DNA of 64,000 bases from Sipunculus nudus. Taxonomy: Eukaryota > Annelida > Sipuncula > Golfingiida > Sipunculidae. Shown in pieces: positions 1 to 64,000 of this stretch. The translations under genes and the position numbers were made by a program. The stretch spans positions 68,041,917-68,105,916 of the forward strand of contig CM049319.1 of the NCBI GenBank assembly GCA_026874595.1. Direction: 5' to 3'. The number at the start of each line of letters is the position of its first letter. The stretch's first letter is position 1. The notes under the pieces were generated by a model. That model searched no databases. It was not told the origin of the DNA and was given only the letters and a program-made list of their open reading frames with translations.

Positions 1-349
1 TAGAGCATAGGAAAGTGAATCTCGTTGTTGAACCGTGCCGCCGTGTAGAGGATATGAAAGTGAACCTCGTATGTGAACCGTGCCACCGAGTAGAGCATAG
101 GAAAGTCAATCTCGTTGTTGAACCGTGCCACCCTGTCGAGCATAGGAAAGTGAACCTCGTATATGAACCGTTCCGCCGAGTAGAGCATAGGAAAGTGAAC
201 CTCGTATATGAACCGTGCCACCGTGTAGAGCATAGGAAAGTGAAAATCGTTGTTGAACCGTGCCACCGAGTAGAGGATATGAAAGTGAACCTCGTATGTG
301 AACCGTGCCGCCGTGTAGAGCATAGGAAAGTGAACCTCGTATATGAACC

Positions 350-529
350 GTTCAGCCATGAAGAGCATAGGAGAGTGAACCTCGTATATGAACAGTGCCG
401 CCATGTAGAGCATAGGAAAGTGAACCTCGTATATGAACCGTTCAGCCATGAAGAGCATAGGAGAGTGAACCTCGTATATGAACAGTGCCGCCATGTAGAG
501 CATAGGAAAGTGAACCTCGTATATTAACC
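350..529. repeat. 90-bp dimer repeated twice, before a TATATTAACC monomer
   Basis: A TTCAGCCATGAAGAG monomer followed by a GAACAGTGCCGCC monomer occurs twice in a row. The same doubled dimer is found near 12900-13078, 53290-53470 and 55720-55900. Most other module ends have this dimer only once, so the doubling marks a subset of junctions. Confidence 0.82.
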
Positions 530-1652
530 GTTCCGCCGAGTAGAGCATAGGAAAGTGAACCTCGTATCTGAACCGTGCCACCGTGTAGAGCATAGGAAAG
601 TGAACCTCGTTGTTGAACCGTGCCACCCTGTAGAGCATAGGAAAGTGAACCTCGTATATGAACCGTTCCGCCGAATAGAGCATAGGAAAGTGAACCTCGT
701 ATATGAACCCTGCCACCGTGTAGAGCATAGGAAAGTGAACCTCGTTGTTGAACCGTGCCACCCTGTAGAGCATAGGAGAGTGAACCTCGTATGTGAACCT
801 TGCCGCCGTGTAGAGCATAGGAAAGTGAACCTCGTTGTTGAACCGTGCCACCGTGTAGAGCATAGGAAAGTGAACCTCTTATATGAACCGTGCCACCCTG
901 TAGTGCATAGGAAAATGAACCTCGTATATGAACCGTGCCACCGAGTAGAGCATAGGAAAGTGAACCTCGTATATGAACCGTTCAGCCATGTAGAGCATAG
1001 GAGAGTGAACCTCGTATGTGAACCGTGCCGCCGTGTAGAGCATAGGAGAGTGAACCTCGTATGTGAACCGTGCCGCCGTGTAGAGGATATGAAAGTGAAC
1101 CTCGTTGTTGAACCGTGCCACCGAGTAGAGGATATGAAAGTGAACCTCGTATGTGAACCGTGCCGCCGTGTAGAGGATATGAAAGTGAACCTCGTATATG
1201 AACCGTGCCACCGAGTAGAGCATAGGAAAGTGAATCTCGTTGTTGAACCGTGCCGCCGTGTAGAGGATATGAAAGTGAACCTCGTATGTGAACCGTGCCA
1301 ACGAGTAGAGCATAGGAAAGTCAATCTCGTTGTTGAACCGTGCCACCCTGTCGAGCATAGGAAAGTGAACCTCGTATATGAACCGTTCCGCCGAGTAGAG
1401 CATAGGAAAGTGAACCTCGTATATGAACCGTGCCACCGTGTAGAGCATAGGAAAGTGAACCTCGTATATGAACCGTTCAGCCATGTAGAGCATAGGAGAG
1501 TGAACCTCGTATGTGAACCGTGCCGCCGTGTAGAGCATAGGAAAGTGAACCTCGTATATGAACCGTTCAGCCATGAAGAGCATAGGAGAGTGAACCTCGT
1601 ATATGAACAGTGCCGCCATGTAGAGCATAGGAAAGTGAACCTCGTATATTAA
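528..1652. repeat. 25-monomer (1,125-bp) module, type example
   Basis: A run of 25 monomers in fixed order begins just after a TATATTAACC monomer and has TATCTG in its first full unit. Equivalent 1,125-bp modules lie at 4983-6107, 13079-14203, 17534-18658, 40378-41502, 49196-50320, 53471-54595, 55901-57025 and 60356-61480. Versions short of one monomer lie at 38938-40017 and 50681-51760. It is the largest block that is shared nearly intact by families 1 and 2, so it is probably older than both long units. Confidence 0.85.
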
Positions 1653-2870
1653 CCGTTCCGCCGAGTAGAGCATAGGAAAGTGAACCTCGTATCTGAACCG
1701 TGCCACCGTGTAGAGCATAGGAAAGTGAACCTCGTATATGAACCGTGCCACCCTGTAGAGCATAGGAAAGTGAACCTCGTATATGAACCGTTCCGCCGAA
1801 TAGAGCATAGGAAAGTTAACCTCGTATATGAACCCTGCCACCGTGTAAAGCATAGGAAAGTGAACCTCGTTGTTGAACCGTGCCACCCTGTAGAGCATAG
1901 GAGAGTAAACCTCGTATGTGAACCTTGCCGCCGTGTAGAGCATAGGAAAGTGAACCTCGTTGTTGAACCGTGCCACCCTGTAGAGCATAGGAGAGTGAAC
2001 CTCGTATGTGAACCTTGCCGCCGTGTAGAGCATAGGAAAGTGAACCTCATTGTTGAACCGTGCCACCGTGTAGAGCATAGGAAAGTGAACCTCTTATATG
2101 AACCGTGCCACCCTGTAGAGCATAGGAAAATGAACCTCGTATATGAACCGTGCCACCGAGTAGAGCATAGGAAAGTGAACCTCGTATATGAACCGTTCAG
2201 CCATGTAGAGCATAGGAGAGTGAACCTCGTATGTGAACCGTGCCGCCGTGTAGAGCATAGGAGAGTGAACCTCGTATGTGAACCGTGCCGCCGTGTAGAG
2301 GATATGAAAGTGAACCTCGTTGTTGAACCGTGCCACCGAGTAGAGGATATGAAAGTGAACCTCGTATGTGAACCGTGCCGCCGTGTAGAGGATATGAAAG
2401 TGAACCTCGTATATGAACCGTGCCACCGAGTAGAGCATAGGAAAGTGAATCTCGTTGTTGAACCGTGCCGCCGTGTAGAGGATATGAAAGTGAACCTCGT
2501 ATGTGAACCGTGCCACCGAGTAGAGCATAGGAAAGTCAATCTCGTTGTTGAACCGTGCCACCCTGTCGAGCATAGGAAAGTGAACCTCGTATATGAACCG
2601 TTCCGCCGAGTAGAGCATAGGAAAGTGAACCTCGTATATGAACCGTGCCACCGTGTAGAGCATAGGAAAGTGAAAATCGTTGTTGAACCGTGCCACCGAG
2701 TAGAGGATATGAAAGTGAACCTCGTATTTGAACCGTGCCGCCGTGTAGAGGATATGAAAGTGAACCTCGCATGTGAACCGGACCGCCGTGTAGAGGATAT
2801 GAAAGTGAACCTCGTATATGAACCGTGCCACCGAGTAGAGCATAGGAAAGTGAACCTCGTATATGAACCG

Positions 2871-3140
2871 TTCAGCCATGTAGAGCATAGGAGAGTGAAC
2901 CTCGTATGTGAACCGTGCCGCCGTGTAGAGCATAGGAAAGTGAACCTCGTATATGAACCGTTCAGCCATGTAGAGCATAGGAGGGTGAACCTCGTATGTG
3001 AACCGTGCCGCCGTGTAGAGCATAGGAAAGTGAACCTCGTATATGAACCGTTCAGCCATGTAGAGCATAGGAGAGTGAACCTCGTATGTGAACCGTGCCG
3101 CCGTGTAGAGCATGGGAGAGTGAACCTCGTATGTAAACCG
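2871..3140. repeat. 90-bp dimer repeated three times
   Basis: The pair TTCAGCCATG monomer plus CCGCCGTG monomer occurs at 2871, 2961 and 3051, each 90 bp apart. The same triplet is at matching places in the other family 1 copies and near 9710-9980. The middle repeat carries GAGGGTG (near 2984), which tags this site in every copy. Confidence 0.85.
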
Positions 3141-3645
3141 TGCCGCCGTGTAGAGCATGGGAGAGTGAACCTCGTTGTTGAACCGTTCCACCCTGTAGAG
3201 CATAGGAAAGTGAACCTCATATATGAACCGTTCCGCCGAGTAGAGCATAGGAAAGTGAACCTCGTATATGAACCGTGCCACCGTGTAGAGCATAGGAAAT
3301 TGAACCTCGTTTTTGAACCGTGCCACCGTGTAGAGCAAAGGAAAGTGAACCTCGTATATGAACCGTGACACCGTGTAGAGCATAGGAAAGTGAACCTCGT
3401 ATATGAACCGTGCCACCGTGTAGAGCATAGGAAAGTGAACCTCGTATATGAACCGTGCCACCCTGTAGAGCATAGGAAAGTGAACCTCGTATATGAACCG
3501 TGCCACCCTGTAGAGCATAGGAAAGTGAACCTCGTATATGAACCGTTCCGCCGAGTAGAGCATAGGAAAGTGAACCTCGTATATGAACCGTGCCACCGTG
3601 TAGAGCATAGGAAAGTGAACCTCGTTGTTGAACCGTGCCACCGAG

Positions 3646-3735
3646 TAGAGCATAGGAAAGTGAACCTCGTTCTCAAACCATTCCGCCATGTAAGGCAGAG
3701 GACACTGAATCTGGTTGTCGAACCGTGCCACCGAG
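3646..3735. repeat. Divergent marker dimer (type example of 28)
   Basis: Two neighbouring monomers depart strongly from the consensus, with GTTCTCAAACCATTCCGCC followed by GGACACTGAATCTGG. The GTTCT of each copy starts at 3669, 7854, 9110, 10370, 11180, 16220, 20405, 21661, 22921, 23731, 25574, 26834, 28226, 29351, 30521, 32139, 33306, 34566, 36184, 37354, 38479, 43564, 44824, 46442, 47612, 48737, 59042 and 63227. Subtypes are visible: GGCAGAGG with GAATCTGG (mostly family 1), GGCAAAGG with GATTCTGG (11180, 23731 and nearly all of 25-48 kb), GGGAGAGG (7854, 20405, 63227), and GTTCTTAAACC with GGACAGTG (28226, 38479, 48737). Confidence 0.92.
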
Positions 3736-6700
3736 TGGAGCATAGGAAAGTGAATCTCGTTGTTGAACAGTGCCGCCGTGTAGAGGATATGAAAGTGATT
3801 CTCGTATATGAACCGTGCCACCGAGTAGAGCATAGGAGAGTGAATCTCGTTGTTGAACCGTGCCGCCGTGTAGAGGATATGAAAGTGAACCTCGTATGTG
3901 AACCGTGCCGCCGTGTAGAGGATATGAAAGTGAACCTCGTATATGAACCGTGCCACCGAGTAGAGCATAGGAAAGTGAACCTCGTATATGAACGGTTCAG
4001 CCATGTAGAGCATAGGAGAGTGAACCTCGTATGTGAACCGTGCCGCAATGTAGAGCATAGGAAAGTGAACCTCGTATATGAACCGTTCAGCCATGTAGAG
4101 CATAGGAGAGTGAACCTCGTATGTGAACCGTGCCGCCGTGTAGAGCATAGGAAAGTGAACCTCGTATATGAACCGTTCAGCCATGAAGAGCATAGGAGAG
4201 TGAACCTCGTATATGAACAGTGCCGCCATGTGAATCATAGGAAAGTGAACCTCGTATATTAACCGTTTCGCCGAGTAGAGCATAGGAAAGTGAACCTCGT
4301 ATATGAACCGTGCCACCGTGTAGAGCATAGGAAAGTGAACCTCGTTGTTGAACCGTGCCACCCTGTAGAGCATAGGAAAGTGAACCTCGTATATGAACCG
4401 TTCCGCCGAATAGAGCATAGGAAAGTGAACCTCGTATATGAACCCTGCCACCGTGTAGAGCATAGGAAAGTGAACCTCGTTGTTGAACCGTGCCAACCTG
4501 TAGAGCATAGGAGAGTGAACCTCGTATGTGAACCTTGCCGCCGTGTAGAGCATAGGAAAGTGAACCTCGTTGTTGAACCGTGCCACCGTGTAGAGCATAT
4601 GAAAGTGAACCTCGTATATGAACCGTGCCACCCTGTAGAACATAGGAAAATGAACCTCGTATAAGAACCGTGCCACCGAGTAGAGCATAGGAAAGTGAAC
4701 CTCGTATATGAACCGTTCAGCCATGTAGAGCATAGGAGAGTGAACCTCGTATGTGAACCGTGCCGCCGTGTAGAGCATAGGAAAGTGAACCTCGTATATG
4801 AACCGTTCAGCCATGTAGAGCATAGGAGAGTGAACCTCGTATGTGAACCGTGCCACCGTGTAGAGCATAGGAAAGTGAACCTCGTATATGAACCGTTCAG
4901 CCATGAAGAGCATAGGAGAGTGAACCTCGTATATGAACAGTGCCGCCATGTAGAGCATAGGAAAGTGAACCTCGTATATTAACCGTTCCGCCGAGTAGAG
5001 CATAGGAAAGTGAACCTCGTATCTGAACCGTGCCACCGTGTAGAGCATAGGAAAGTGAACCTCGTTGTTGAACCGTGCCACCCTGTAGAGCATAGGAAAG
5101 TGAACCTCGTATATGAACCGTTCCGCCGAATAGAGCATAGGAAAGTGAACCTCGTATATGAACCCTGCCACCGTGTAGAGCATAGGAAAGTGAACCTCGT
5201 TGTTGAACCGTGCCACCCTGTAGAGCATAGGAGAGTGAACCTCGTATGTGAACCTTGCCGCCGTGTAGAGCATAGGAAAGTGAACCTCGTTGTTGAACCG
5301 TGCCACCGTGTAGAGCATAGGAAAGTGAACCTCTTATATGAACCGTGCCACCCTGTAGTGCATAGGAAAATGAACCTCGTATATGAACCGTGCCACCGAG
5401 TAGAGCATAGGAAAGTGAACCTCGTATATGAACCGTTCAGCCATGTAGAGCATAGGAGAGTGAACCTCGTATGTGAACCGTGCCGCCGTGTAGAGCATAG
5501 GAGAGTGAACCTCGTATGTGAACCGTGCCGCCGTGTAGAGGATATGAAAGTGAACCTCGTTGTTGAACCGTGCCACCGAGTAGAGGATATGAAAGTGAAC
5601 CTCGTATGTGAACCGTGCCGCCGTGTAGAGGATATGAAAGTGAACCTCGTATATGAACCGTGCCACCGAGTAGAGCATAGGAAAGTGAATCTCGTTGTTG
5701 AACCGTGCCGCCGTGTAGAGGATATGAAAGTGAACCTCGTATGTGAACCGTGCCAACGATTAGAGCATAGGAAAGTCAATCTCGTTGTTGAACCGTGCCA
5801 CCCTGTCGAGCATAGGAAAGTGAACCTCGTATATGAACCGTTCCGCCGAGTAGAGCATAGGAAAGTGAACCTCGTATATGAACCGTGCCACCGTGTAGAG
5901 CATAGGAAAGTGAACCTCGTATATGAACCGTTCAGCCATGTAGAGCATAGGAGAGTGAACCTCGTATGTGAACCGTGCCGCCGTGTAGAGCATAGGAAAG
6001 TGAACCTCGTATATGAACCGTTCAGCCATGAAGAGCATAGGAGAGTGAACCTCGTATATGAACAGTGCCGCCATGTAGAGCATAGGAAAGTGAACCTCGT
6101 ATATTAACCGTTCCGCCGATTAGAGCATAGGAAAGTGAACCTCGTATCTGAACCGTGCCACCGTGTAGAGCATAGGAAAGTGAACCTCGTATATGAACCG
6201 TGCCACCCTGTAGAGCATAGGAAAGTGAACCTCGTATATGAACCGTTCCGCCGAATAGAGCATAGGAAAGTGAACCTCGTATATGAACCCTGCCACCGTG
6301 TAAAGCATAGGAAAGTGAACCTCGTTGTTGAACCGTGCCACCCTGTAGAGCATAGGAGAGTAAACCTCGTATGTGAACCTTGCCGCCGTGTAGAACATAG
6401 GAAAGTGAACCTCGTTGTTGAACCGTGCCACCCTGTAGAGCATAGGAGAGTGAACCTCGTATGTGAACCTTGCCGCCGTGTAGAGCATAGGAAAGTGAAC
6501 CTCATTGTTGAACCGTGCCACCGTGTAGAGCATAGGAAAGTGAACCTCTTATATGAACCGTGCCACCCTGTAGAGCATAGGAAAATGAACCTCGTATATG
6601 AACCGTGCCACCGAGTAGAGCATAGGAAAGTGAACCTCGTATATGAACCGTTCAGCCATGTAGAGCATAGGAGAGTGAACCTCGTATGTGAACCGTGCCG

Positions 6701-8460
6701 CCGTGTAGAGCATAGGAGAGTGAACCTCGTATGTGAACCGTGCCGCCGTGTAGAGGATATGAAAGTGAACCTCGTTGTTGAACCGTGCCACCGAGTAGAG
6801 GATATGAAAGTGAACCTCGTATGTGAACCGTGCCGCCGTGTAGAGGATATGAAAGTGAACCTCGTATATGAACCGTGCCACCGAGTAGAGCATAGGAAAG
6901 TGAATCTCGTTGTTGAACCGTGCCGCCGTGTAGAGGATATGAAAGTGAACCTCGTATGTGAACCGTGCCACCGAGTAGAGCATAGGAAAGTCAATCTCGT
7001 TGTTGAACCGTGCCACCCTGTCGAGCATAGGAAAGTGAACCTCGTATATGAACCGTTCCGCCGAGTAGAGCATAGGAAAGTGAACCTCGTATATGAACCG
7101 TGCCACCGTGTAGAGCATAGAAAAGTGAAAATCGTTGTTGAACCGTGCCACCGAGTAGAGGATATGAAAGTGAACCTCGTATTTGAACCGTGCCGCCGTG
7201 TAGAGGATATGAAAGTGAACCTCGCATGTGAACCGTGCCGCCGTGTAGAGGATATGAAAGTGAACCTCGTATATGAACCGTGCCACCGAGTAGAGCATAG
7301 GAAAGTGAACCTCGTATATGAACCGTTCAGCCATGTAGAGCATAGGAGAGTGAACCTCGTATGTGAACCGTGCCGCCGTGTAGAGCATAGGAAAGTGAAC
7401 CTCGTATATGAACCGTTCAGCCATGTAGAGCATAGGAGGGTGAACCTCGTATGTGAACCGTGCCGCCGTGTAGAGCATAGGAAAGTGAACCTCGTTTTTG
7501 AACCGTGCCACCGTGTAGAGCAAAGGAAAGTGAACCTCGTATATGAACCGTGCCACCGTGTAGAGCATAGGAAAGTGAACCTCGTATATGAACCGTGCCA
7601 CCGTGTAGAGCATAGGAAAGTGAACCTCGTATATGAACCGTGCCACCCTGTAGAGCATAGGAAAGTGAACCTCGTATATGAACCGTGCCACCCTGTAGAG
7701 CATAGGAAAGTGAACCTCGTATATGAACCGTTCCGCCGAGTAGAGCATAGGAAAGTGAACCTCGTATATGAACCGTGCCACCGTGTAGAGCATAGGAAAG
7801 TGAACCTCGTTGTTGAACCGTGCCACCGAGTAGAGCATAGGAAAGTGAACCTCGTTCTCAAACCATTCCGCCATGTAAGGGAGAGGACACTGAATCTGGT
7901 TGTCGAACCGTGCCACCGAGTGGAGCATAGGAAAGTGAATCTCGTTGTTGAACAGTGCCGCCGTGTAGAGGATATGAAAGTGAACCTCGTATATGAACCG
8001 TGCCACCGAGTAGAGCATAGGAGAGTGAATCTCGTTGTTGAACCGTGCCGCCGTGTAGAGGATATGAAAGTGAACCTCGTATGTGAACCGTGCCGCCGTG
8101 TAGAGGATATGAAAGTGAACCTCGTATATGAACCGTGCCACCGAGTAGAGCATAGGAAAGTGAACCTCGTATATGAACCTTTCAGCCATGTAGAGCATAG
8201 GAGAGTGAACCTCGTATGTGAACCGTGCCGCCCTGTAGAGCATAGGAAAGTGAACCTCGTATATGAACCGTTCAGCCATGTTGAGCATAGGAGAGTGAAC
8301 CTCGTATGTGAACCGTGCCGCCGTGTAGAGCTTAGGAAAGTGAACCTCGTATATGAACCGTTCAGCCATGAAGAGCATAGGAAAGTGAACCTCGTATATG
8401 AACAGTGCCGCCATGTGAATCATAGGAAAGTGAACCTCGTATATTAACCGTTTCGCCGAG

Positions 8461-8501
8461 TAGAGCATAGGAAAATCTCGTATATGAACCGTGCCACCGT
8501 G
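8461..8501. repeat. 41-bp short monomer (4-bp deletion), copy 1
   Basis: The unit reads GGAAAATCTCG where a full variant reads GGAAAGTGAATCTCG, so GTGA is missing. This one event makes the family 1 period 12,551 rather than 12,555 bp and shifts the reading frame of the array. Confidence 0.93.
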
Positions 8502-11500
8502 TAGAGCATAGGAAAGTGAACCTCGTTGTTGAACCGTGCCACCCTGTAGAGCATAGGAAAGTGAACCTCGTATATGAACCGTTCCGCCGAATAGAGCATA
8601 GGAAAGTGAACCTCGTATATGAACCCTGCCACCGTGTAGAGCATAGGAAAGTGAACCTCGTTGTTGAACCGTGCCACCCTGTAGAGCATAGGAAAGTGAA
8701 CCTCGTTGTTGAACCGTGCCACCGTGTAGAGCATATGAAAGTGAACCTCGTATATGAACCGTGCCACCCTGTAGAGCATAGGAAAATGAACCTCGTATAA
8801 GAACCGTGCCACCGAGTAGAGCATAGGAAAGTGAACCTCGTATATGAACCGTTCAGCCATGTAGAGCATAGGAGAGTGAACCTCGTATGTGAACCGTGCC
8901 GCCGTGTAGAGCATAGGAAAGTGAACCTCGTATATGAACCGTTCAGCCATGTAGAGCATAGGAGAGTGAACCTCGTATATGAACCGTTCCGCCGGGTAGA
9001 GCATAGGAAAGTGAACCTCGTATATGAACCGTGCCACCGTGTAGAGCATAGGAAAGTGAACCTCGTTGTTGAACCGTGCCACCGAGTAGAGCATAGGAAA
9101 GTGAACCTCGTTCTCAAACCATTCCGCCATGTAAGGCAGAGGACACTGAATCTGGTTGTCGAACTGTGCCACCGAGTGGAGCATGGGAAAGTGAATCTCG
9201 TTGTTGAACCGTGCCGCCGTGTAGAGGATATGAAAGTGAACCTCGTATATGAAGCATGCCACCGAGTAGAGCATAGGAGAGTGAATCTCGTTGTTGAACC
9301 GTGCCGCCGTGTAGAGGATATGAAAGTGAATCTCGTTGTTGAACCGTGCCGCCGTGTAGAGCATAGGAAAGTCAATCTCGTTGTTGAACCGTGCCACCCT
9401 GTCGAGCATAGGAAAGTGAACCTCGTATATGAACCGTTCCGCCGAGTAGAGCATAGGAAAGTGAACCTCGTATATGAACCGTGCCACCGTGTAGAGCATA
9501 GGAAAGTGAAAATCGTTGTTGAACCGTGCCACCGAGTAGAGGATATGAAAGTGAACCTCGTATGTGAACCGTGCCGCCGTGTAGAGGATATGAAAGTGAA
9601 CCTCGCATGTGAACCGTGCCGCCGTGTAGAGGATATGAAAGTGAACCTCGTATATGAACCGTGCCACCGAGTAGAGCATAGGAAAGTGAACCTCGTATAT
9701 GAACCGTTCAGCCATGTAGAGCATAGGAGAGTGAACCTCGTATGTGAACCGTGCCGCCGTGTAGAGCATAGGAAAGTGAACCTCGTATATGAACCGTTCA
9801 GCCATGTAGAGCATAGGAGGGTGAACCTCGTATGTGAACCGTGCCGCCGTGTAGAGCATAGGAAAGTGAACCTCGTATATGAACCGTTCAGCCATGTAGA
9901 GCATAGGAGAGTGAACCTCGTATGTGAACCGTGCCGCCGTGTAGAGCATGGGAGAGTGAACCTCGTATGTAAACCGTGCCGCCGTGTAGAGCATGGGAGA
10001 GTGAACCTCGTTGTTGAACCGTGCCACCCTGTAGAGCATAGGAAAGTTAACCTCGTATATGAACCGTTCCGCCGAGTAGAGCATAGGAAAGTGAACCTCG
10101 TATATGAACCGTGCCACCGTGTAGAGCATAGGAAAGTGAACCTCGTATATGAACCGTGCCACCCTGTAGAGCATAGGAAAGTGAACCTCGTATATGAACC
10201 GTGCCAGCCTGTAGAGCATAGGAAAGTGAACCTCGTATATGAACCGTTCCGCCGAGTAGAGCATAGGAAAGTGAACCTCGTATATGAACCGTGCCACCGT
10301 GTAGAGCATAGGAAAGTGAACCTCGTTGTTGAACCGTGCCACCGAGTAGAGCATAGGAAAGTGAACCTCGTTCTCAAACCATTCCGCCATGTAAGGCAGA
10401 GGACACTGAATCTGGTTGTCGAACCGTGCCACCGAGTGGAGCATAGGAAAGTGAATCTCGTTGTTGAACAGTGCCGCCGTGTAGAGGATATGAAAGTGAA
10501 CCTCGTATATGAACCGTGCCACCGAGTAGAGCATAGGAGAGTGAATCTCGTTGTTGAACCGTGCCGCCGTGTAGAGGATATGAAAGTGAACCTCGTATGT
10601 GAACCGTGCCGCCGTGTAGAGGATATGAAAGTGAACCTCGTATATGAACCGTGCCACCAAGTAGAGCATAGGAAAGTGAACCTCGTATATGAACCGTTCA
10701 GCCATGTAGAGCATAGGAGAGTGAACCTCGTATGTGAACCGTGCCGCCGTGTAGAGCATAGGAAAGTGAACCTCGTATATGAACCGTTCACCAATGTAGA
10801 GCATAGGAGAGGGAACCTCGTATATGAACCGTGCCGCCATGTAGAGATTAGGAAAGTGAACCTCGTATATGACCCGTTCCGCCGAGTAGAGCATAGGAAA
10901 GTGAACCTCGTATATGAACCGTGCCACCGTGTAGAGCATAGGAAAGTGAACCTCGTATATGAACCGTGCCACCCTGTAGAGCATAGGAAAGTGAACCTCG
11001 TATATGAACCGTGCCACCCTGTAAAGCATAGGAAAGTGAACCTCGTATATGAACCGTTCCGCCGAGTAGAGCATAGGAAAGTGAACCTCGTATATGAACC
11101 GTGCCACCGTGTAGAGCATAGGAAAGTGAACCTCGTTGTTGAACCGTGCCACCGAGTAGAGCATAGGAAAGTGAACCTCGTTCTCAAACCATTCCGCCAT
11201 GTAAGGCAAAGGACACTGATTCTGGTTGTCGAACCGTGCCACCGAGTGGAGCATAGGAAAGTGAATCTCGTTGTTGAACCGTGCCGCCGTGTAGAGGATA
11301 TGAAAGTGAACCTCGTATATGAACCGTGCCACCGAGTAGAGCATAGGAGAGTGAATCTCGTTGTTGAACCGTGCCGCCGTGTAGAGGATATGAAAGTGAA
11401 CCTCGTATGTGAACCGTGCCGCCGTGTAGAGGATATGAAAGTGAACCTCGTATATGAACCGTGCCACCGAGTAGAGCATAGGAAAGTGAACCTCGTATAT

Positions 11501-12551
11501 GAACCGTTCAGCCATGTAGAGCATAGGAGAGTGAACCTCGTATGTGAACCGTGCCGCCGTGTAGAGCATAGGAAAGTGAACCTCGTATATGAACCGTTCA
11601 GCCATGTAGAGCATAGGAGAGTGAACCTGGTATGTGAACCGTGCCGCCGTGTAGAGCATAGGAAAGTGAACCTCGTATATGAACCGTTCAGCCATGAAGA
11701 GCATAGGAGAGTGAACCTCGTATATGAACAGTGCCGCCATGTGAATCATAGGAAAGTGAACCTCGTATATTAACCGTTCCGCCGAGTAGAGCATAGGAAA
11801 GTGAACCTCGTATATGAACCGTGCCACCGTGTAGAGCATAGGAAAGTGAACCTCGTTGTTGAACCGTGCCACCCTGTAGAGCATAGGAAAGTGAACCTCG
11901 TATATGAACCGTTCCGCCGAATAGAGCATAGGAAAGTGAACCTCGTATATGAACCCTGCCACCGTGTAGAGCATAGGAAAGTGAACCTCGTTGTTGAACC
12001 GTGCCACCCTGTAGAGCATAGGAGAGTGAACCTCGTATGTGAACCTTGCCGCCGTGTAGAGCATAGGAAAGTGAACCTCGTATATGAACCGTTCCGCCGA
12101 ATAGAGCATAGGAAAGTGAACCTCGTATATGAACCCTGCCGCCGTGTAGAGCATAGGAAAGTGAACCTCATTGTTGAACCGTGCCACCGTGTAGAGCATA
12201 GGAAAGTGAACCTCTTATATGAACCGTGCCACCCTGTAGAGCATAGGAAAATGAACCTCGTATATGAACCGTGCCACCGAGTAGAGCATAGGAAAGTGAA
12301 CCTCGTATATGAACCGTTCAGCCATGTAGAGCATAGGAGAGTGAACCTCGTATGTGAACCGTGCCGCCGTGTAGAGCATAGGAGAGTGAACCTCGTATGT
12401 GAACCGTGCCGCCGTGTAGAGGATATGAAAGTGAACCTCGTTGTTGAACCGTGCCACCGAGTAGAGGATATGAAAGTGAACCTCGTATGTGAACCGTGCC
12501 GCCGTGTAGAGGATATGAAAGTGAACCTCGTATATGAACCGTGCCACCGAG

Positions 12552-15500
12552 TAGAGCATAGGAAAGTGAATCTCGTTGTTGAACCGTGCCGCCGTGTAGA
12601 GGATATGAAAGTGAACCTCGTATGTGAACCGTGCCACCGAGTAGAGCATAGGAAAGTCAATCTCGTTGTTGAACCGTGCCACCCTGTCGAGCATAGGAAA
12701 GTGAACCTCGTATATGAACCGTTCCGCCGAGTAGAGCATAGGAAAGTGAACCTCGTATATGAACCGTGCCACCGTGTAGAGCATAGGAAAGTGAAAATCG
12801 TTGTTGAACCGTGCCACCGAGTAGAGGATATGAAAGTGAACCTCGTATGTGAACCGTGCCGCCGTGTAGAGCATAGGAAAGTGAACCTCGTATATGAACC
12901 GTTCAGCCATGAAGAGCATAGGAGAGTGAACCTCGTATATGAACAGTGCCGCCATGTAGAGCATAGGAAAGTGAACCTCGTATATGAACCGTTCAGCCAT
13001 GAAGAGCATAGGAGAGTGAACCTCGTATATGAACAGTGCCGCCATGTAGAGCATAGGAAAGTGAACCTCGTATATTAACCGTTCCGCCGAGTAGAGCATA
13101 GGAAAGTGAACCTCGTATCTGAACCGTGCCACCGTGTAGAGCATAGGAAAGTGAACCTCGTTGTTGAACCGTGCCACCCTGTAGAGCATAGGAAAGTGAA
13201 CCTCGTATATGAACCGTTCCGCCGAATAGAGCATAGGAAAGTGAACCTCGTATATGAACCCTGCCACCGTGTAGAGCATAGGAAAGTGAACCTCGTTGTT
13301 GAACCGTGCCACCCTGTAGAGCATAGGAGAGTGAACCTCGTATGTGAACCTTGCCGCCGTGTAGAGCATAGGAAAGTGAACCTCGTTGTTGAACCGTGCC
13401 ACCGTGTAGAGCATAGGAAAGTGAACCTCTTATATGAACCGTGCCACCCTGTAGTGCATAGGAAAATGAACCTCGTATATGAACCGTGCCACCGAGTAGA
13501 GCATAGGAAAGTGAACCTCGTATATGAACCGTTCAGCCATGTAGAGCATAGGAGAGTGAACCTCGTATGTGAACCGTGCCGCCGTGTAGAGCATAGGAGA
13601 GTGAACCTCGTATGTGAACCGTGCCGCCGTGTAGAGGATATGAAAGTGAACCTCGTTGTTGAACCGTGCCACCGAGTAGAGGATATGAAAGTGAACCTCG
13701 TATGTGAACCGTGCCGCCGTGTAGAGGATATGAAAGTGAACCTCGTATATGAACCGTGCCACCGAGTAGAGCATAGGAAAGTGAATCTCGTTGTTGAACC
13801 GTGCCGCCGTGTAGAGGATATGAAAGTGAACCTCGTATGTGAACCGTGCCAACGAGTAGAGCATAGGAAAGTCAATCTCGTTGTTGAACCGTGCCACCCT
13901 GTCGAGCATAGGAAAGTGAACCTCGTATATGAACCGTTCCGCCGAGTAGAGCATAGGAAAGTGAACCTCGTATATGAACCGTGCCACCGTGTAGAGCATA
14001 GGAAAGTGAACCTCGTATATGAACCGTTCAGCCATGTAGAGCATAGGAGAGTGAACCTCGTATGTGAACCGTGCCGCCGTGTAGAGCATAGGAAAGTGAA
14101 CCTCGTATATGAACCGTTCAGCCATGAAGAGCATAGGAGAGTGAACCTCGTATATGAACAGTGCCGCCATGTAGAGCATAGGAAAGTGAACCTCGTATAT
14201 TAACCGTTCCGCCGAGTAGAGCATAGGAAAGTGAACCTCGTATCTGAACCGTGCCACCGTGTAGAGCATAGGAAAGTGAACCTCGTATATGAACCGTGCC
14301 ACCCTGTAGAGCATAGGAAAGTGAACCTCGTATATGAACCGTTCCGCCGAATAGAGCATAGGAAAGTTAACCTCGTATATGAACCCTGCCACCGTGTAAA
14401 GCATAGGAAAGTGAACCTCGTTGTTGAACCGTGCCACCCTGTAGAGCATAGGAGAGTAAACCTCGTATGTGAACCTTGCCGCCGTGTAGAGCATAGGAAA
14501 GTGAACCTCGTTGTTGAACCGTGCCACCCTGTAGAGCATAGGAGAGTGAACCTCGTATGTGAACCTTGCCGCCGTGTAGAGCATAGGAAAGTGAACCTCA
14601 TTGTTGAACCGTGCCACCGTGTAGAGCATAGGAAAGTGAACCTCTTATATGAACCGTGCCACCCTGTAGAGCATAGGAAAATGAACCTCGTATATGAACC
14701 GTGCCACCGAGTAGAGCATAGGAAAGTGAACCTCGTATATGAACCGTTCAGCCATGTAGAGCATAGGAGAGTGAACCTCGTATGTGAACCGTGCCGCCGT
14801 GTAGAGCATAGGAGAGTGAACCTCGTATGTGAACCGTGCCGCCGTGTAGAGGATATGAAAGTGAACCTCGTTGTTGAACCGTGCCACCGAGTAGAGGATA
14901 TGAAAGTGAACCTCGTATGTGAACCGTGCCGCCGTGTAGAGGATATGAAAGTGAACCTCGTATATGAACCGTGCCACCGAGTAGAGCATAGGAAAGTGAA
15001 TCTCGTTGTTGAACCGTGCCGCCGTGTAGAGGATATGAAAGTGAACCTCGTATGTGAACCGTGCCACCGAGTAGAGCATAGGAAAGTCAATCTCGTTGTT
15101 GAACCGTGCCACCCTGTCGAGCATAGGAAAGTGAACCTCGTATATGAACCGTTCCGCCGAGTAGAGCATAGGAAAGTGAACCTCGTATATGAACCGTGCC
15201 ACCGTGTAGAGCATAGGAAAGTGAAAATCGTTGTTGAACCGTGCCACCGAGTAGAGGATATGAAAGTGAACCTCGTATTTGAACCGTGCCGCCGTGTAGA
15301 GGATATGAAAGTGAACCTCGCATGTGAACCGGACCGCCGTGTAGAGGATATGAAAGTGAACCTCGTATATGAACCGTGCCACCGAGTAGAGCATAGGAAA
15401 GTGAACCTCGTATATGAACCGTTCAGCCATGTAGAGCATAGGAGAGTGAACCTCGTATGTGAACCGTGCCGCCGTGTAGAGCATAGGAAAGTGAACCTCG

Positions 15501-18500
15501 TATATGAACCGTTCAGCCATGTAGAGCATAGGAGGGTGAACCTCGTATGTGAACCGTGCCGCCGTGTAGAGCATAGGAAAGTGAACCTCGTATATGAACC
15601 GTTCAGCCATGTAGAGCATAGGAGAGTGAACCTCGTATGTGAACCGTGCCGCCGTGTAGAGCATGGGAGAGTGAACCTCGTATGTAAACCGTGCCGCCGT
15701 GTAGAGCATGGGAGAGTGAACCTCGTTGTTGAACCGTTCCACCCTGTAGAGCATAGGAAAGTGAACCTCATATATGAACCGTTCCGCCGAGTAGAGCATA
15801 GGAAAGTGAACCTCGTATATGAACCGTGCCACCGTGTAGAGCATAGGAAATTGAACCTCGTTTTTGAACCGTGCCACCGTGTAGAGCAAAGGAAAGTGAA
15901 CCTCGTATATGAACCGTGACACCGTGTAGAGCATAGGAAAGTGAACCTCGTATATGAACCGTGCCACCGTGTAGAGCATAGGAAAGTGAACCTCGTATAT
16001 GAACCGTGCCACCCTGTAGAGCATAGGAAAGTGAACCTCGTATATGAACCGTGCCACCCTGTAGAGCATAGGAAAGTGAACCTCGTATATGAACCGTTCC
16101 GCCGAGTAGAGCATAGGAAAGTGAACCTCGTATATGAACCGTGCCACCGTGTAGAGCATAGGAAAGTGAACCTCGTTGTTGAACCGTGCCACCGAGTAGA
16201 GCATAGGAAAGTGAACCTCGTTCTCAAACCATTCCGCCATGTAAGGCAGAGGACACTGAATCTGGTTGTCGAACCGTGCCACCGAGTGGAGCATAGGAAA
16301 GTGAATCTCGTTGTTGAACAGTGCCGCCGTGTAGAGGATATGAAAGTGATTCTCGTATATGAACCGTGCCACCGAGTAGAGCATAGGAGAGTGAATCTCG
16401 TTGTTGAACCGTGCCGCCGTGTAGAGGATATGAAAGTGAACCTCGTATGTGAACCGTGCCGCCGTGTAGAGGATATGAAAGTGAACCTCGTATATGAACC
16501 GTGCCACCGAGTAGAGCATAGGAAAGTGAACCTCGTATATGAACGGTTCAGCCATGTAGAGCATAGGAGAGTGAACCTCGTATGTGAACCGTGCCGCAAT
16601 GTAGAGCATAGGAAAGTGAACCTCGTATATGAACCGTTCAGCCATGTAGAGCATAGGAGAGTGAACCTCGTATGTGAACCGTGCCGCCGTGTAGAGCATA
16701 GGAAAGTGAACCTCGTATATGAACCGTTCAGCCATGAAGAGCATAGGAGAGTGAACCTCGTATATGAACAGTGCCGCCATGTGAATCATAGGAAAGTGAA
16801 CCTCGTATATTAACCGTTTCGCCGAGTAGAGCATAGGAAAGTGAACCTCGTATATGAACCGTGCCACCGTGTAGAGCATAGGAAAGTGAACCTCGTTGTT
16901 GAACCGTGCCACCCTGTAGAGCATAGGAAAGTGAACCTCGTATATGAACCGTTCCGCCGAATAGAGCATAGGAAAGTGAACCTCGTATATGAACCCTGCC
17001 ACCGTGTAGAGCATAGGAAAGTGAACCTCGTTGTTGAACCGTGCCAACCTGTAGAGCATAGGAGAGTGAACCTCGTATGTGAACCTTGCCGCCGTGTAGA
17101 GCATAGGAAAGTGAACCTCGTTGTTGAACCGTGCCACCGTGTAGAGCATATGAAAGTGAACCTCGTATATGAACCGTGCCACCCTGTAGAACATAGGAAA
17201 ATGAACCTCGTATAAGAACCGTGCCACCGAGTAGAGCATAGGAAAGTGAACCTCGTATATGAACCGTTCAGCCATGTAGAGCATAGGAGAGTGAACCTCG
17301 TATGTGAACCGTGCCGCCGTGTAGAGCATAGGAAAGTGAACCTCGTATATGAACCGTTCAGCCATGTAGAGCATAGGAGAGTGAACCTCGTATGTGAACC
17401 GTGCCACCGTGTAGAGCATAGGAAAGTGAACCTCGTATATGAACCGTTCAGCCATGAAGAGCATAGGAGAGTGAACCTCGTATATGAACAGTGCCGCCAT
17501 GTAGAGCATAGGAAAGTGAACCTCGTATATTAACCGTTCCGCCGAGTAGAGCATAGGAAAGTGAACCTCGTATCTGAACCGTGCCACCGTGTAGAGCATA
17601 GGAAAGTGAACCTCGTTGTTGAACCGTGCCACCCTGTAGAGCATAGGAAAGTGAACCTCGTATATGAACCGTTCCGCCGAATAGAGCATAGGAAAGTGAA
17701 CCTCGTATATGAACCCTGCCACCGTGTAGAGCATAGGAAAGTGAACCTCGTTGTTGAACCGTGCCACCCTGTAGAGCATAGGAGAGTGAACCTCGTATGT
17801 GAACCTTGCCGCCGTGTAGAGCATAGGAAAGTGAACCTCGTTGTTGAACCGTGCCACCGTGTAGAGCATAGGAAAGTGAACCTCTTATATGAACCGTGCC
17901 ACCCTGTAGTGCATAGGAAAATGAACCTCGTATATGAACCGTGCCACCGAGTAGAGCATAGGAAAGTGAACCTCGTATATGAACCGTTCAGCCATGTAGA
18001 GCATAGGAGAGTGAACCTCGTATGTGAACCGTGCCGCCGTGTAGAGCATAGGAGAGTGAACCTCGTATGTGAACCGTGCCGCCGTGTAGAGGATATGAAA
18101 GTGAACCTCGTTGTTGAACCGTGCCACCGAGTAGAGGATATGAAAGTGAACCTCGTATGTGAACCGTGCCGCCGTGTAGAGGATATGAAAGTGAACCTCG
18201 TATATGAACCGTGCCACCGAGTAGAGCATAGGAAAGTGAATCTCGTTGTTGAACCGTGCCGCCGTGTAGAGGATATGAAAGTGAACCTCGTATGTGAACC
18301 GTGCCAACGATTAGAGCATAGGAAAGTCAATCTCGTTGTTGAACCGTGCCACCCTGTCGAGCATAGGAAAGTGAACCTCGTATATGAACCGTTCCGCCGA
18401 GTAGAGCATAGGAAAGTGAACCTCGTATATGAACCGTGCCACCGTGTAGAGCATAGGAAAGTGAACCTCGTATATGAACCGTTCAGCCATGTAGAGCATA

Positions 18501-21500
18501 GGAGAGTGAACCTCGTATGTGAACCGTGCCGCCGTGTAGAGCATAGGAAAGTGAACCTCGTATATGAACCGTTCAGCCATGAAGAGCATAGGAGAGTGAA
18601 CCTCGTATATGAACAGTGCCGCCATGTAGAGCATAGGAAAGTGAACCTCGTATATTAACCGTTCCGCCGATTAGAGCATAGGAAAGTGAACCTCGTATCT
18701 GAACCGTGCCACCGTGTAGAGCATAGGAAAGTGAACCTCGTATATGAACCGTGCCACCCTGTAGAGCATAGGAAAGTGAACCTCGTATATGAACCGTTCC
18801 GCCGAATAGAGCATAGGAAAGTGAACCTCGTATATGAACCCTGCCACCGTGTAAAGCATAGGAAAGTGAACCTCGTTGTTGAACCGTGCCACCCTGTAGA
18901 GCATAGGAGAGTAAACCTCGTATGTGAACCTTGCCGCCGTGTAGAACATAGGAAAGTGAACCTCGTTGTTGAACCGTGCCACCCTGTAGAGCATAGGAGA
19001 GTGAACCTCGTATGTGAACCTTGCCGCCGTGTAGAGCATAGGAAAGTGAACCTCATTGTTGAACCGTGCCACCGTGTAGAGCATAGGAAAGTGAACCTCT
19101 TATATGAACCGTGCCACCCTGTAGAGCATAGGAAAATGAACCTCGTATATGAACCGTGCCACCGAGTAGAGCATAGGAAAGTGAACCTCGTATATGAACC
19201 GTTCAGCCATGTAGAGCATAGGAGAGTGAACCTCGTATGTGAACCGTGCCGCCGTGTAGAGCATAGGAGAGTGAACCTCGTATGTGAACCGTGCCGCCGT
19301 GTAGAGGATATGAAAGTGAACCTCGTTGTTGAACCGTGCCACCGAGTAGAGGATATGAAAGTGAACCTCGTATGTGAACCGTGCCGCCGTGTAGAGGATA
19401 TGAAAGTGAACCTCGTATATGAACCGTGCCACCGAGTAGAGCATAGGAAAGTGAATCTCGTTGTTGAACCGTGCCGCCGTGTAGAGGATATGAAAGTGAA
19501 CCTCGTATGTGAACCGTGCCACCGAGTAGAGCATAGGAAAGTCAATCTCGTTGTTGAACCGTGCCACCCTGTCGAGCATAGGAAAGTGAACCTCGTATAT
19601 GAACCGTTCCGCCGAGTAGAGCATAGGAAAGTGAACCTCGTATATGAACCGTGCCACCGTGTAGAGCATAGAAAAGTGAAAATCGTTGTTGAACCGTGCC
19701 ACCGAGTAGAGGATATGAAAGTGAACCTCGTATTTGAACCGTGCCGCCGTGTAGAGGATATGAAAGTGAACCTCGCATGTGAACCGTGCCGCCGTGTAGA
19801 GGATATGAAAGTGAACCTCGTATATGAACCGTGCCACCGAGTAGAGCATAGGAAAGTGAACCTCGTATATGAACCGTTCAGCCATGTAGAGCATAGGAGA
19901 GTGAACCTCGTATGTGAACCGTGCCGCCGTGTAGAGCATAGGAAAGTGAACCTCGTATATGAACCGTTCAGCCATGTAGAGCATAGGAGGGTGAACCTCG
20001 TATGTGAACCGTGCCGCCGTGTAGAGCATAGGAAAGTGAACCTCGTTTTTGAACCGTGCCACCGTGTAGAGCAAAGGAAAGTGAACCTCGTATATGAACC
20101 GTGCCACCGTGTAGAGCATAGGAAAGTGAACCTCGTATATGAACCGTGCCACCGTGTAGAGCATAGGAAAGTGAACCTCGTATATGAACCGTGCCACCCT
20201 GTAGAGCATAGGAAAGTGAACCTCGTATATGAACCGTGCCACCCTGTAGAGCATAGGAAAGTGAACCTCGTATATGAACCGTTCCGCCGAGTAGAGCATA
20301 GGAAAGTGAACCTCGTATATGAACCGTGCCACCGTGTAGAGCATAGGAAAGTGAACCTCGTTGTTGAACCGTGCCACCGAGTAGAGCATAGGAAAGTGAA
20401 CCTCGTTCTCAAACCATTCCGCCATGTAAGGGAGAGGACACTGAATCTGGTTGTCGAACCGTGCCACCGAGTGGAGCATAGGAAAGTGAATCTCGTTGTT
20501 GAACAGTGCCGCCGTGTAGAGGATATGAAAGTGAACCTCGTATATGAACCGTGCCACCGAGTAGAGCATAGGAGAGTGAATCTCGTTGTTGAACCGTGCC
20601 GCCGTGTAGAGGATATGAAAGTGAACCTCGTATGTGAACCGTGCCGCCGTGTAGAGGATATGAAAGTGAACCTCGTATATGAACCGTGCCACCGAGTAGA
20701 GCATAGGAAAGTGAACCTCGTATATGAACCGTTCAGCCATGTAGAGCATAGGAGAGTGAACCTCGTATGTGAACCGTGCCGCCCTGTAGAGCATAGGAAA
20801 GTGAACCTCGTATATGAACCGTTCAGCCATGTTGAGCATAGGAGAGTGAACCTCGTATGTGAACCGTGCCGCCGTGTAGAGCTTAGGAAAGTGAACCTCG
20901 TATATGAACCGTTCAGCCATGAAGAGCATAGGAAAGTGAACCTCGTATATGAACAGTGCCGCCATGTGAATCATAGGAAAGTGAACCTCGTATATTAACC
21001 GTTTCGCCGAGTAGAGCATAGGAAAATCTCGTATATGAACCGTGCCACCGTGTAGAGCATAGGAAAGTGAACCTCGTTGTTGAACCGTGCCACCCTGTAG
21101 AGCATAGGAAAGTGAACCTCGTATATGAACCGTTCCGCCGAATAGAGCATAGGAAAGTGAACCTCGTATATGAACCCTGCCACCGTGTAGAGCATAGGAA
21201 AGTGAACCTCGTTGTTGAACCGTGCCACCCTGTAGAGCATAGGAAAGTGAACCTCGTTGTTGAACCGTGCCACCGTGTAGAGCATATGAAAGTGAACCTC
21301 GTATATGAACCGTGCCACCCTGTAGAGCATAGGAAAATGAACCTCGTATAAGAACCGTGCCACCGAGTAGAGCATAGGAAAGTGAACCTCGTATATGAAC
21401 CGTTCAGCCATGTAGAGCATAGGAGAGTGAACCTCGTATGTGAACCGTGCCGCCGTGTAGAGCATAGGAAAGTGAACCTCGTATATGAACCGTTCAGCCA

Positions 21501-24500
21501 TGTAGAGCATAGGAGAGTGAACCTCGTATATGAACCGTTCCGCCGGGTAGAGCATAGGAAAGTGAACCTCGTATATGAACCGTGCCACCGTGTAGAGCAT
21601 AGGAAAGTGAACCTCGTTGTTGAACCGTGCCACCGAGTAGAGCATAGGAAAGTGAACCTCGTTCTCAAACCATTCCGCCATGTAAGGCAGAGGACACTGA
21701 ATCTGGTTGTCGAACTGTGCCACCGAGTGGAGCATGGGAAAGTGAATCTCGTTGTTGAACCGTGCCGCCGTGTAGAGGATATGAAAGTGAACCTCGTATA
21801 TGAAGCATGCCACCGAGTAGAGCATAGGAGAGTGAATCTCGTTGTTGAACCGTGCCGCCGTGTAGAGGATATGAAAGTGAATCTCGTTGTTGAACCGTGC
21901 CGCCGTGTAGAGCATAGGAAAGTCAATCTCGTTGTTGAACCGTGCCACCCTGTCGAGCATAGGAAAGTGAACCTCGTATATGAACCGTTCCGCCGAGTAG
22001 AGCATAGGAAAGTGAACCTCGTATATGAACCGTGCCACCGTGTAGAGCATAGGAAAGTGAAAATCGTTGTTGAACCGTGCCACCGAGTAGAGGATATGAA
22101 AGTGAACCTCGTATGTGAACCGTGCCGCCGTGTAGAGGATATGAAAGTGAACCTCGCATGTGAACCGTGCCGCCGTGTAGAGGATATGAAAGTGAACCTC
22201 GTATATGAACCGTGCCACCGAGTAGAGCATAGGAAAGTGAACCTCGTATATGAACCGTTCAGCCATGTAGAGCATAGGAGAGTGAACCTCGTATGTGAAC
22301 CGTGCCGCCGTGTAGAGCATAGGAAAGTGAACCTCGTATATGAACCGTTCAGCCATGTAGAGCATAGGAGGGTGAACCTCGTATGTGAACCGTGCCGCCG
22401 TGTAGAGCATAGGAAAGTGAACCTCGTATATGAACCGTTCAGCCATGTAGAGCATAGGAGAGTGAACCTCGTATGTGAACCGTGCCGCCGTGTAGAGCAT
22501 GGGAGAGTGAACCTCGTATGTAAACCGTGCCGCCGTGTAGAGCATGGGAGAGTGAACCTCGTTGTTGAACCGTGCCACCCTGTAGAGCATAGGAAAGTTA
22601 ACCTCGTATATGAACCGTTCCGCCGAGTAGAGCATAGGAAAGTGAACCTCGTATATGAACCGTGCCACCGTGTAGAGCATAGGAAAGTGAACCTCGTATA
22701 TGAACCGTGCCACCCTGTAGAGCATAGGAAAGTGAACCTCGTATATGAACCGTGCCAGCCTGTAGAGCATAGGAAAGTGAACCTCGTATATGAACCGTTC
22801 CGCCGAGTAGAGCATAGGAAAGTGAACCTCGTATATGAACCGTGCCACCGTGTAGAGCATAGGAAAGTGAACCTCGTTGTTGAACCGTGCCACCGAGTAG
22901 AGCATAGGAAAGTGAACCTCGTTCTCAAACCATTCCGCCATGTAAGGCAGAGGACACTGAATCTGGTTGTCGAACCGTGCCACCGAGTGGAGCATAGGAA
23001 AGTGAATCTCGTTGTTGAACAGTGCCGCCGTGTAGAGGATATGAAAGTGAACCTCGTATATGAACCGTGCCACCGAGTAGAGCATAGGAGAGTGAATCTC
23101 GTTGTTGAACCGTGCCGCCGTGTAGAGGATATGAAAGTGAACCTCGTATGTGAACCGTGCCGCCGTGTAGAGGATATGAAAGTGAACCTCGTATATGAAC
23201 CGTGCCACCAAGTAGAGCATAGGAAAGTGAACCTCGTATATGAACCGTTCAGCCATGTAGAGCATAGGAGAGTGAACCTCGTATGTGAACCGTGCCGCCG
23301 TGTAGAGCATAGGAAAGTGAACCTCGTATATGAACCGTTCACCAATGTAGAGCATAGGAGAGGGAACCTCGTATATGAACCGTGCCGCCATGTAGAGATT
23401 AGGAAAGTGAACCTCGTATATGACCCGTTCCGCCGAGTAGAGCATAGGAAAGTGAACCTCGTATATGAACCGTGCCACCGTGTAGAGCATAGGAAAGTGA
23501 ACCTCGTATATGAACCGTGCCACCCTGTAGAGCATAGGAAAGTGAACCTCGTATATGAACCGTGCCACCCTGTAAAGCATAGGAAAGTGAACCTCGTATA
23601 TGAACCGTTCCGCCGAGTAGAGCATAGGAAAGTGAACCTCGTATATGAACCGTGCCACCGTGTAGAGCATAGGAAAGTGAACCTCGTTGTTGAACCGTGC
23701 CACCGAGTAGAGCATAGGAAAGTGAACCTCGTTCTCAAACCATTCCGCCATGTAAGGCAAAGGACACTGATTCTGGTTGTCGAACCGTGCCACCGAGTGG
23801 AGCATAGGAAAGTGAATCTCGTTGTTGAACCGTGCCGCCGTGTAGAGGATATGAAAGTGAACCTCGTATATGAACCGTGCCACCGAGTAGAGCATAGGAG
23901 AGTGAATCTCGTTGTTGAACCGTGCCGCCGTGTAGAGGATATGAAAGTGAACCTCGTATGTGAACCGTGCCGCCGTGTAGAGGATATGAAAGTGAACCTC
24001 GTATATGAACCGTGCCACCGAGTAGAGCATAGGAAAGTGAACCTCGTATATGAACCGTTCAGCCATGTAGAGCATAGGAGAGTGAACCTCGTATGTGAAC
24101 CGTGCCGCCGTGTAGAGCATAGGAAAGTGAACCTCGTATATGAACCGTTCAGCCATGTAGAGCATAGGAGAGTGAACCTGGTATGTGAACCGTGCCGCCG
24201 TGTAGAGCATAGGAAAGTGAACCTCGTATATGAACCGTTCAGCCATGAAGAGCATAGGAGAGTGAACCTCGTATATGAACAGTGCCGCCATGTGAATCAT
24301 AGGAAAGTGAACCTCGTATATTAACCGTTCCGCCGAGTAGAGCATAGGAAAGTGAACCTCGTATATGAACCGTGCCACCGTGTAGAGCATAGGAAAGTGA
24401 ACCTCGTTGTTGAACCGTGCCACCCTGTAGAGCATAGGAAAGTGAACCTCGTATATGAACCGTTCCGCCGAATAGAGCATAGGAAAGTGAACCTCGTATA

Positions 24501-24632
24501 TGAACCCTGCCACCGTGTAGAGCATAGGAAAGTGAACCTCGTTGTTGAACCGTGCCACCCTGTAGAGCATAGGAGAGTGAACCTCGTATGTGAACCTTGC
24601 CGCCGTGTAGAGCATAGGAAAGTGAACCTCGT
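12552..24632. repeat. 12,551-bp higher-order repeat, family 1, copy 2
   Basis: This is the second, adjacent copy of the 279-monomer unit. It follows copy 1 monomer by monomer until 24632; at 24633 it reads T where the copy 1 equivalent (12082) reads A, and the order of monomer types then changes. It shares with copy 1, but not with copy 3, four variants at 16350-16351, 16545, about 16598 and 17047. This makes copies 1 and 2 closest relatives in that stretch. It carries the same 41-bp monomer as copy 1, at 21012-21052. Confidence 0.92.
21012..21052. repeat. 41-bp short monomer, copy 2
   Basis: The same 4-bp loss as at 8461, exactly 12,551 bp downstream. Sharing it shows that the deletion came before the duplication. 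Confidence 0.93.
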
Positions 24633-25192
24633 TGTTGAACCGTGCCACCGTGTAGAGCATATGAAAGTGAACCTCGTATATGAACCGTGCCACCCTGTAG
24701 AGCATAGGAAAATGAACCTCGTATAAGAACCGTGCCACCGAGTAGAGCATAGGAAAGTGAACCTCGTATATGAACCGTTCAGCCATGTAGAGCATAGGAG
24801 AGTGAACCTCGTATGTGAACCGTGCCGCCGTGTAGAGCATAGGAAAGTGAACCTCGTATATGAACCGTTCAGCCATGTAGAGCATAGGAGAGTGAACCTC
24901 GTATGTGAACCGTGCCGCCGTGTAGAGCATAGGAAAGTGAACCTCGTATATGAACCGTTCAGCCATGTAGAGCATAGGAGAGTGAACCTTGTATATGAAC
25001 CGTGCCGCCATGTAGAGATTAGGAAAGTGAACCTCGTATATGAACCGTTCCGCCGAGTAGAGCATAGGAAAGTGAACCTCGTATATGAACCGTGCCACCG
25101 AGTAGAGCATAGGAAAGTGAATCTCGTTGTTGAACCGTGCCGCCGTGTAGAGGATATGAAAGTGAACCTCGTATATGAACCGTGCCGCCGTG

Positions 25193-25235
25193 TAGAGGAT
25201 ATGAAAGTGACTCGTATATGAACCGTGCCACCGAG
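25193..25235. repeat. 43-bp short monomer (2-bp deletion), mosaic region
   Basis: The unit reads AAAGTGACTCG instead of AAAGTGAACCTCG, so two bases are missing. It is the first of four such monomers and the only one left of the 4.05-kb repeat. Confidence 0.92.
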
Positions 25236-25573
25236 TAGAGCATAGGAAAGTGAACCTCGTATATGAACCGTTCAGCCATGTAGAGCATAGGAGAGTGAAC
25301 CTCGTATGTGAACCGTGCTGCCCTGTAGAGCATAGGAAAGTGAACCTCATATATGAACCGTTCAGCCATGTAGAGCATAGGAAAGTGAACCTCGTATATG
25401 AACCGTGCCACCCTGTAGAGCATAGGAAAGTGAACCTCGTATATGAACCGTTCCGCCGAGTAGAGCATAGGAAAGTGAACCTCGTATATGAACCGTGCCA
25501 CCGTGTAGAGCATAGGAAAGTGAACCTCGTTGTTGAACCGTGCCACCGAGTAGAGCATAGGAAAGTGAACCTC

Positions 25574-26833: not shown

Positions 26834-26945
26834 GTTCTCAAACCATTCCGCCATGTAAGGCAAAGGACACTGATTCTGGTTGTCGAACCGTGCCACCGAG
26901 TGGAGCATAGGAAAGTGAATCTCGTTGTTGAACCGTGCCGCCGTG

Positions 26946-26987
26946 TAGAGGATATGAAATTCCTCGTATATGAACCGTGCCACCGAG
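26946..26987. repeat. 42-bp short monomer, single occurrence
   Basis: The unit reads GATATGAAATTCCTCG where relatives read GATATGAAAGTGAACCTCG. Three bases are lost net, with a local change. It was not seen elsewhere in the window, so it is a recent private event. The length change keeps the reading frame. Confidence 0.88.
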
Positions 26988-45700: not shown

Positions 45701-45743
45701 TAGAGGATATGAAAGTGACTCGTATATGAACCGTGCCACCGAG
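45701..45743. repeat. 43-bp short monomer, family 2 copy B
   Basis: The same 2-bp loss, 10,258 bp after 35443. Confidence 0.92.
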
Positions 45744-63833: not shown

Positions 63834-63874
63834 TAGAGCATAGGAAAATCTCGTATATGAACCGTGCCACCGTG
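63834..63874. repeat. 41-bp short monomer, copy 3
   Basis: The same 4-bp loss in the third family 1 copy, 42,822 bp after 21012. All three family 1 copies in the window that reach this point carry it. Confidence 0.93.
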
Positions 63875-64000
63875 TAGAGCATAGGAAAGTGAACCTCGTT
63901 GTTGAACCGTGCCACCCTGTAGAGCATAGGAAAGTGAACCTCGTATATGAACCGTTCCGCCGAATAGAGCATAGGAAAGTGAACCTCGTATATGAACCCT

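Follow-up and report, generated by a model that had tools for sequence, protein, structure and literature searches.

A probable recent tandem duplication of a 12,551-bp segment within a layered 45-bp satellite array of Sipunculus nudus

In maize centromere 10, adjacent duplications create higher-order repeats (HORs) of the satellite CentC, and an adjacent duplication of 22.7 kb is also described there; repair of breaks at sites of short homology is the mechanism inferred in that study (PMC4806543). Alpha-satellite units in print include the 58mer and 84mer superHORs of orangutan (PMC12428378), an orangutan 59mer (PMC11276891) and a human 52mer (PMC12385485), while the human 34mer is still given as the largest human unit by PMC12428378. 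For CentromereArchitect, superHORs are HORs composed of HORs, with a default minimum count of 2 (PMC8336445).

The stretch of DNA analyzed here (the window) comprises 64,000 nucleotides of Sipunculus nudus contig CM049319.1 (assembly GCA_026874595.1). Tandem Repeats Finder reported the whole window as one uninterrupted tandem array of period 45 (1–63998, 1,422.8 copies, 86% matches), and together with monomer decomposition this defined a 45-bp satellite array at 1–64000 on the forward strand with the consensus TAGAGCATAGGAAAGTGAACCTCGTATATGAACCGTGCCGCCGTG. Wrap-around decomposition yielded 1,423 monomers, 137 of them distinct; 1,413 were exactly 45 bp, 9 were shorter by 2–4 bp, and the final monomer was truncated by the window end. 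Random monomer pairs had a mean identity of 87.1%, and base composition was flat across the window. Strand folding of two monomer dimers revealed nothing unusual (z = +2.05 and −0.52). The array runs to both window edges, with its flanks out of view, and extends beyond the 64 kb; its setting may be centromeric or heterochromatic. Alpha satellite was ruled out by monomer length, the period being 45 bp throughout versus about 171 bp, and the human alpha-satellite comparison drawn in the preliminary description is for that reason a poor yardstick. A scan with the CENP-B box motif found no match with fewer than two mismatches in the window and six with exactly two (shuffled sequences averaged 194 with two or fewer). 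Because many alpha-satellite monomers lack the box, its absence is supporting evidence only.

Positions 1–12081 (copy 1, forward strand) and 12552–24632 were compared at an offset of 12,551 and differed at one of 12,081 sites (99.992% identity), T at 8180 and G at 20731; the 95% Poisson interval on this single mismatch is 0.03–5.6 differences, or at most 4.6 × 10^-4 per site. The preliminary description had reported two tandem copies, near-identical over about 12 kb and spaced by 279 monomers or 12,551 bp, and both statements were borne out. Register is lost at 12082 and 24633, beyond which 12082–12551 and 24633–25102 differ at 51 of 470 positions, the level of unrelated in-phase monomers. Since the match ends abruptly at 12081 and 24632, the simplest phase of the unit is 12082–24632, with copy 1 beginning 470 bases left of the window. 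In this likeliest phase, copy 2 (12082–24632, forward strand) has 12,551 bp and 279 monomers, and a partner is present for only 12,081 of those bases (12552–24632). The spacing equals 279 × 45 − 4, and the four missing bases are one deletion within a single monomer (8471–8473, forward strand), repeated at 21022 and 63844 and thus marking all three copies described below. An out-of-phase join was rejected as the source of the 12,551-bp spacing because the missing bases fall inside one monomer, and the junction between copies 1 and 2 is therefore in monomer phase. The longest exact run of monomers in the window was 181 monomers, compared with 3–5 after shuffling of monomer order (20 runs), 11–18 under a first-order Markov model (40 simulations) and 27–56 under a third-order model (40 simulations).

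A third copy, partial and cut at the window end, occupies 54959–64000 on the forward strand and differs from 12137–21178 at 6 of 9,042 positions and from 1–8627 at 7 of 8,627. The preliminary description mentioned neither this copy nor the second long duplication and the shorter HORs reported below. It sits 30 kb downstream of the tandem pair, no third unit beginning at 24633; the intervening 24633–54958 is a different mosaic containing pieces of the 12.5-kb unit of up to 2.6 kb, never the whole. Left of 12137, copy 3 diverges (11 of 55 positions over 12082–12136) and so does not begin where the unit does in its likeliest phase, which indicates that the copied block varies between events. Of the seven bases that distinguish copy 1 from copy 3, six fall at four places within 3799–4496 (numbered as in copy 1). 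At each of these places the allele shared by copies 1 and 2 is rare, and copy 3 has the common one, the 27-mer of which occurs 94–125 times in the window. The rare 27-mer was confined to copies 1 and 2 at three of the four places and had one further occurrence at the fourth, 4496. Copies 1 and 2 are therefore closest to each other. The seventh difference is at 8180 and is a change private to copy 1, whose 31-mer occurs once there, the other allele occurring 124 times. The other six differences form a cluster of about 700 bp (3799–4496, 16350–17047 and 59172–59869 in the three copies), two of them as pairs of adjacent bases, and may represent a conversion patch or local errors.

At the junction of copies 1 and 2, the left parent, whose continuation is at 24633, and a relative of the right parent at 41631 have 27 bp in common (12055–12081, forward strand); the monomer type switches after these 27 bp. 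The relative at 41631 is identical to 12082–12531 at 447 of 450 positions, and the true right parent is outside the window. Monomer types, ordered by eye, read ER|T versus NG|H, and the junction is apparently in monomer phase but not at a matching HOR position. All 75 long ungapped repeat pairs in the array had offsets that were multiples of 45 after nine indel-bearing monomers were counted; the pairs span 71 different offsets, and many overlap, so they represent far fewer independent events. Joins thus preserve the 45-bp register. When matching sites were sampled from random in-phase pairs, 26% of them lay in identity runs of at least 27 bp; a 27-bp overlap is accordingly nothing special, and fits homologous exchange but is no proof of it.

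Other large duplications were found at different spacings. A second long pair, which is non-adjacent, consists of 32428–39214 and 42686–49472 (both forward strand, offset 10,258, 3 of 6,787 positions differing); one extra monomer then shifts the offset to 10,303, and the copies continue to 40747 and 51050, respectively, with 1 of 1,537 positions differing. Of the large duplications in the window, the 12,551-bp pair shows the fewest differences. Members of duplications longer than 5 kb span 47,193 of the 64,000 bases, and 1-kb stretches that match another site in the window at 99.5% identity or more take in 59,663 of the 64,000; block copying is thus the rule in this array. The sole gap without a 1-kb partner at 99.5% is 24990–29326, which may be older than the rest of the array. 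Below this level, shared 40-mers were most often spaced by 1,215 bp (27 monomers), and the best local monomer lags included 26, 27, 28, 54, 90, 99, 126 and 153; basic HORs comprise about 25–28 monomers. Two HOR families of about 25–27 monomers each alternate in blocks in the monomer-letter string (grouping and counts by eye). A strongly divergent monomer type starting TAAGG (types X, y and z) appears repeatedly and marks the second family. Within the 12.5-kb unit, an internal repeat has a period of 4,455 bp (99 monomers, 7 of 2,637 positions differing).

These findings probably reflect a recent tandem duplication of the 12,551-bp segment within a layered satellite array, through recombination between monomers that were misaligned but in a common 45-bp register. 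Monomer variants are arranged in HORs of variable order, about 25–28 monomers long, and blocks of these HORs would have been copied as segments of about 1–12 kb. The 12,551-bp segment would then have been duplicated in tandem, either by unequal sister exchange or by break-induced re-replication, candidate routes that the sequence does not separate. The copies, the conserved register, the 27 bp common at the junction and the closer kinship of copies 1 and 2 are seen directly in the sequence, and the process and its recency are inferred. The preliminary suggestion of recent amplification of a large segment, rather than monomer-by-monomer homogenization, fits an identity of 99.992% between copies against 87.1% between random monomers.

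Identity this high would also be expected if an assembler had placed one physical segment, or two haplotypes, twice in tandem, the same reads having been used twice. Identical reads would likewise yield the rare alleles common to copies 1 and 2, and a length of 12.5 kb is within long-read range. Such an assembly duplication is nevertheless unlikely. The segment recurs at 54959–64000 with alleles of its own, the other long duplications have different spacings, and the array as assembled therefore copies long segments repeatedly. Copy 1 also has its private base at 8180, although a consensus error could account for a single base. Together these observations argue against an artefact and do not settle the matter. 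Less probable again is that a genuine 279-mer HOR fills a large array on the left, with only its last two units in view. The 12,551-bp period does reach the left window edge without a break, and copy 3 demonstrates reuse of the segment; against this, the period stops right of 24632, where a different mosaic holds only pieces of the unit of up to 2.6 kb, and the unit itself is built of HORs of about 27 monomers and the 4,455-bp internal repeat. In the boldest form of this reading, to which we likewise give little weight, the array would be an undescribed 45-bp satellite with a homogenization block of about 10–12.5 kb and a 279-mer superHOR tiling beyond the left edge, with more than three times as many monomers per unit as the printed 84mer.

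A protein-coding repeat was also considered and rejected, its probability being close to nil. A period of 45 bp corresponds to 15 codons, the consensus is free of stops in all three minus-strand frames and in plus frame 3, and the longest stop-free run, on the minus strand, reaches 1,894 codons; the long open stretches on that strand follow from a 15-codon period and a consensus without stops there. For 84 distinct substitutions, the synonymous share in the six frames was 0.18–0.31 (expected 0.21–0.30), counted on 45-bp monomers only. Plus frame 3 was somewhat high in a bare comparison (0.29 versus 0.22). Clear evidence of coding constraint was absent, the 2- and 4-bp indels disrupt the reading frame, and stops are present in all six frames.

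Monomer patterns were searched in sequence collections. A 22-base pattern had no match in viral_contigs, and 22- and 20-base patterns had none in genome_contigs; a 17-base pattern matched two viral contigs at one site each, with no tandem array, and these matches were taken as chance. Window positions 1–2430 had no match among phages or plasmids. As the collections searched hold viruses, phages, plasmids, bacteria and archaea, these absences say little about a eukaryotic source. No description of this satellite, or of a 45-bp satellite with higher-order repeats, was found in the literature searched. Of six monomer letter strings queried against the literature, five were absent and one 10-mer was present, in 17 papers unrelated by title. 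A frog satellite with a 45-bp monomer is in print and, as compared by size alone in the text available, is a weak lead.

The 12,551-bp unit had been called a higher-order repeat unit. Two adjacent head-to-tail copies of a multi-monomer unit, far more alike than its monomers, are what the term requires in part, but the period is not sustained over many copies within the window: it ends at 24632, and copy 3 is partial and distant. HOR status is thus not established. In the assembly, two nearly identical blocks meet at a single defined junction, as expected of a segmental tandem duplication. With one tandem pair, a distant partial copy and basic HORs of about 25–28 monomers, the feature is best described as a segmental tandem duplication of recent date within a mosaic satellite, and it looks like ordinary satellite-DNA turnover, not a new kind of repeat. 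The unit had also been called exceptionally long. This holds for monomer count relative to the printed units and is overstated in base pairs: at 171 bp per monomer, the orangutan 84mer (PMC12428378, as available) amounts to about 14.4 kb, so 12.55 kb is no record.

The locus offers a clean example of the growth of a satellite array by whole-block copying. Its value is that one segment is present three times, in copies whose branching order can be read, and that the junction is sharp and in phase; it also cautions that two near-identical tandem copies do not by themselves establish a HOR array.

With this locus, a 45-bp satellite joins the cases of block copying described for longer monomers. 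The CentC monomer is about 156 bp, unlike the 45-bp monomer here. As the available text describes it, maize centromere 10 resembles the 12.5-kb pair in that a block of satellite monomers, there a 10-monomer CentC HOR, was duplicated next to itself, and differs in that the CentC block is much smaller and the 22.7-kb duplication is retrotransposon sequence with 5 nt common at its junction (PMC4806543). The cascading superHORs of orangutan, as far as the available text covers them, share large units, the recurrence of monomer types inside a unit and copies that diverge little, but are built of alpha monomers, and the 58mer array has 67 copies, whereas the S. nudus window has a tandem pair and a distant partial copy (PMC12428378). 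The superHORs of CentromereArchitect are, in the available description, likewise HORs within HORs, and the tandem pair could qualify as one by definition; that scheme was designed for human alpha satellite, and its comparison with a 45-bp array is by definition alone (PMC8336445).
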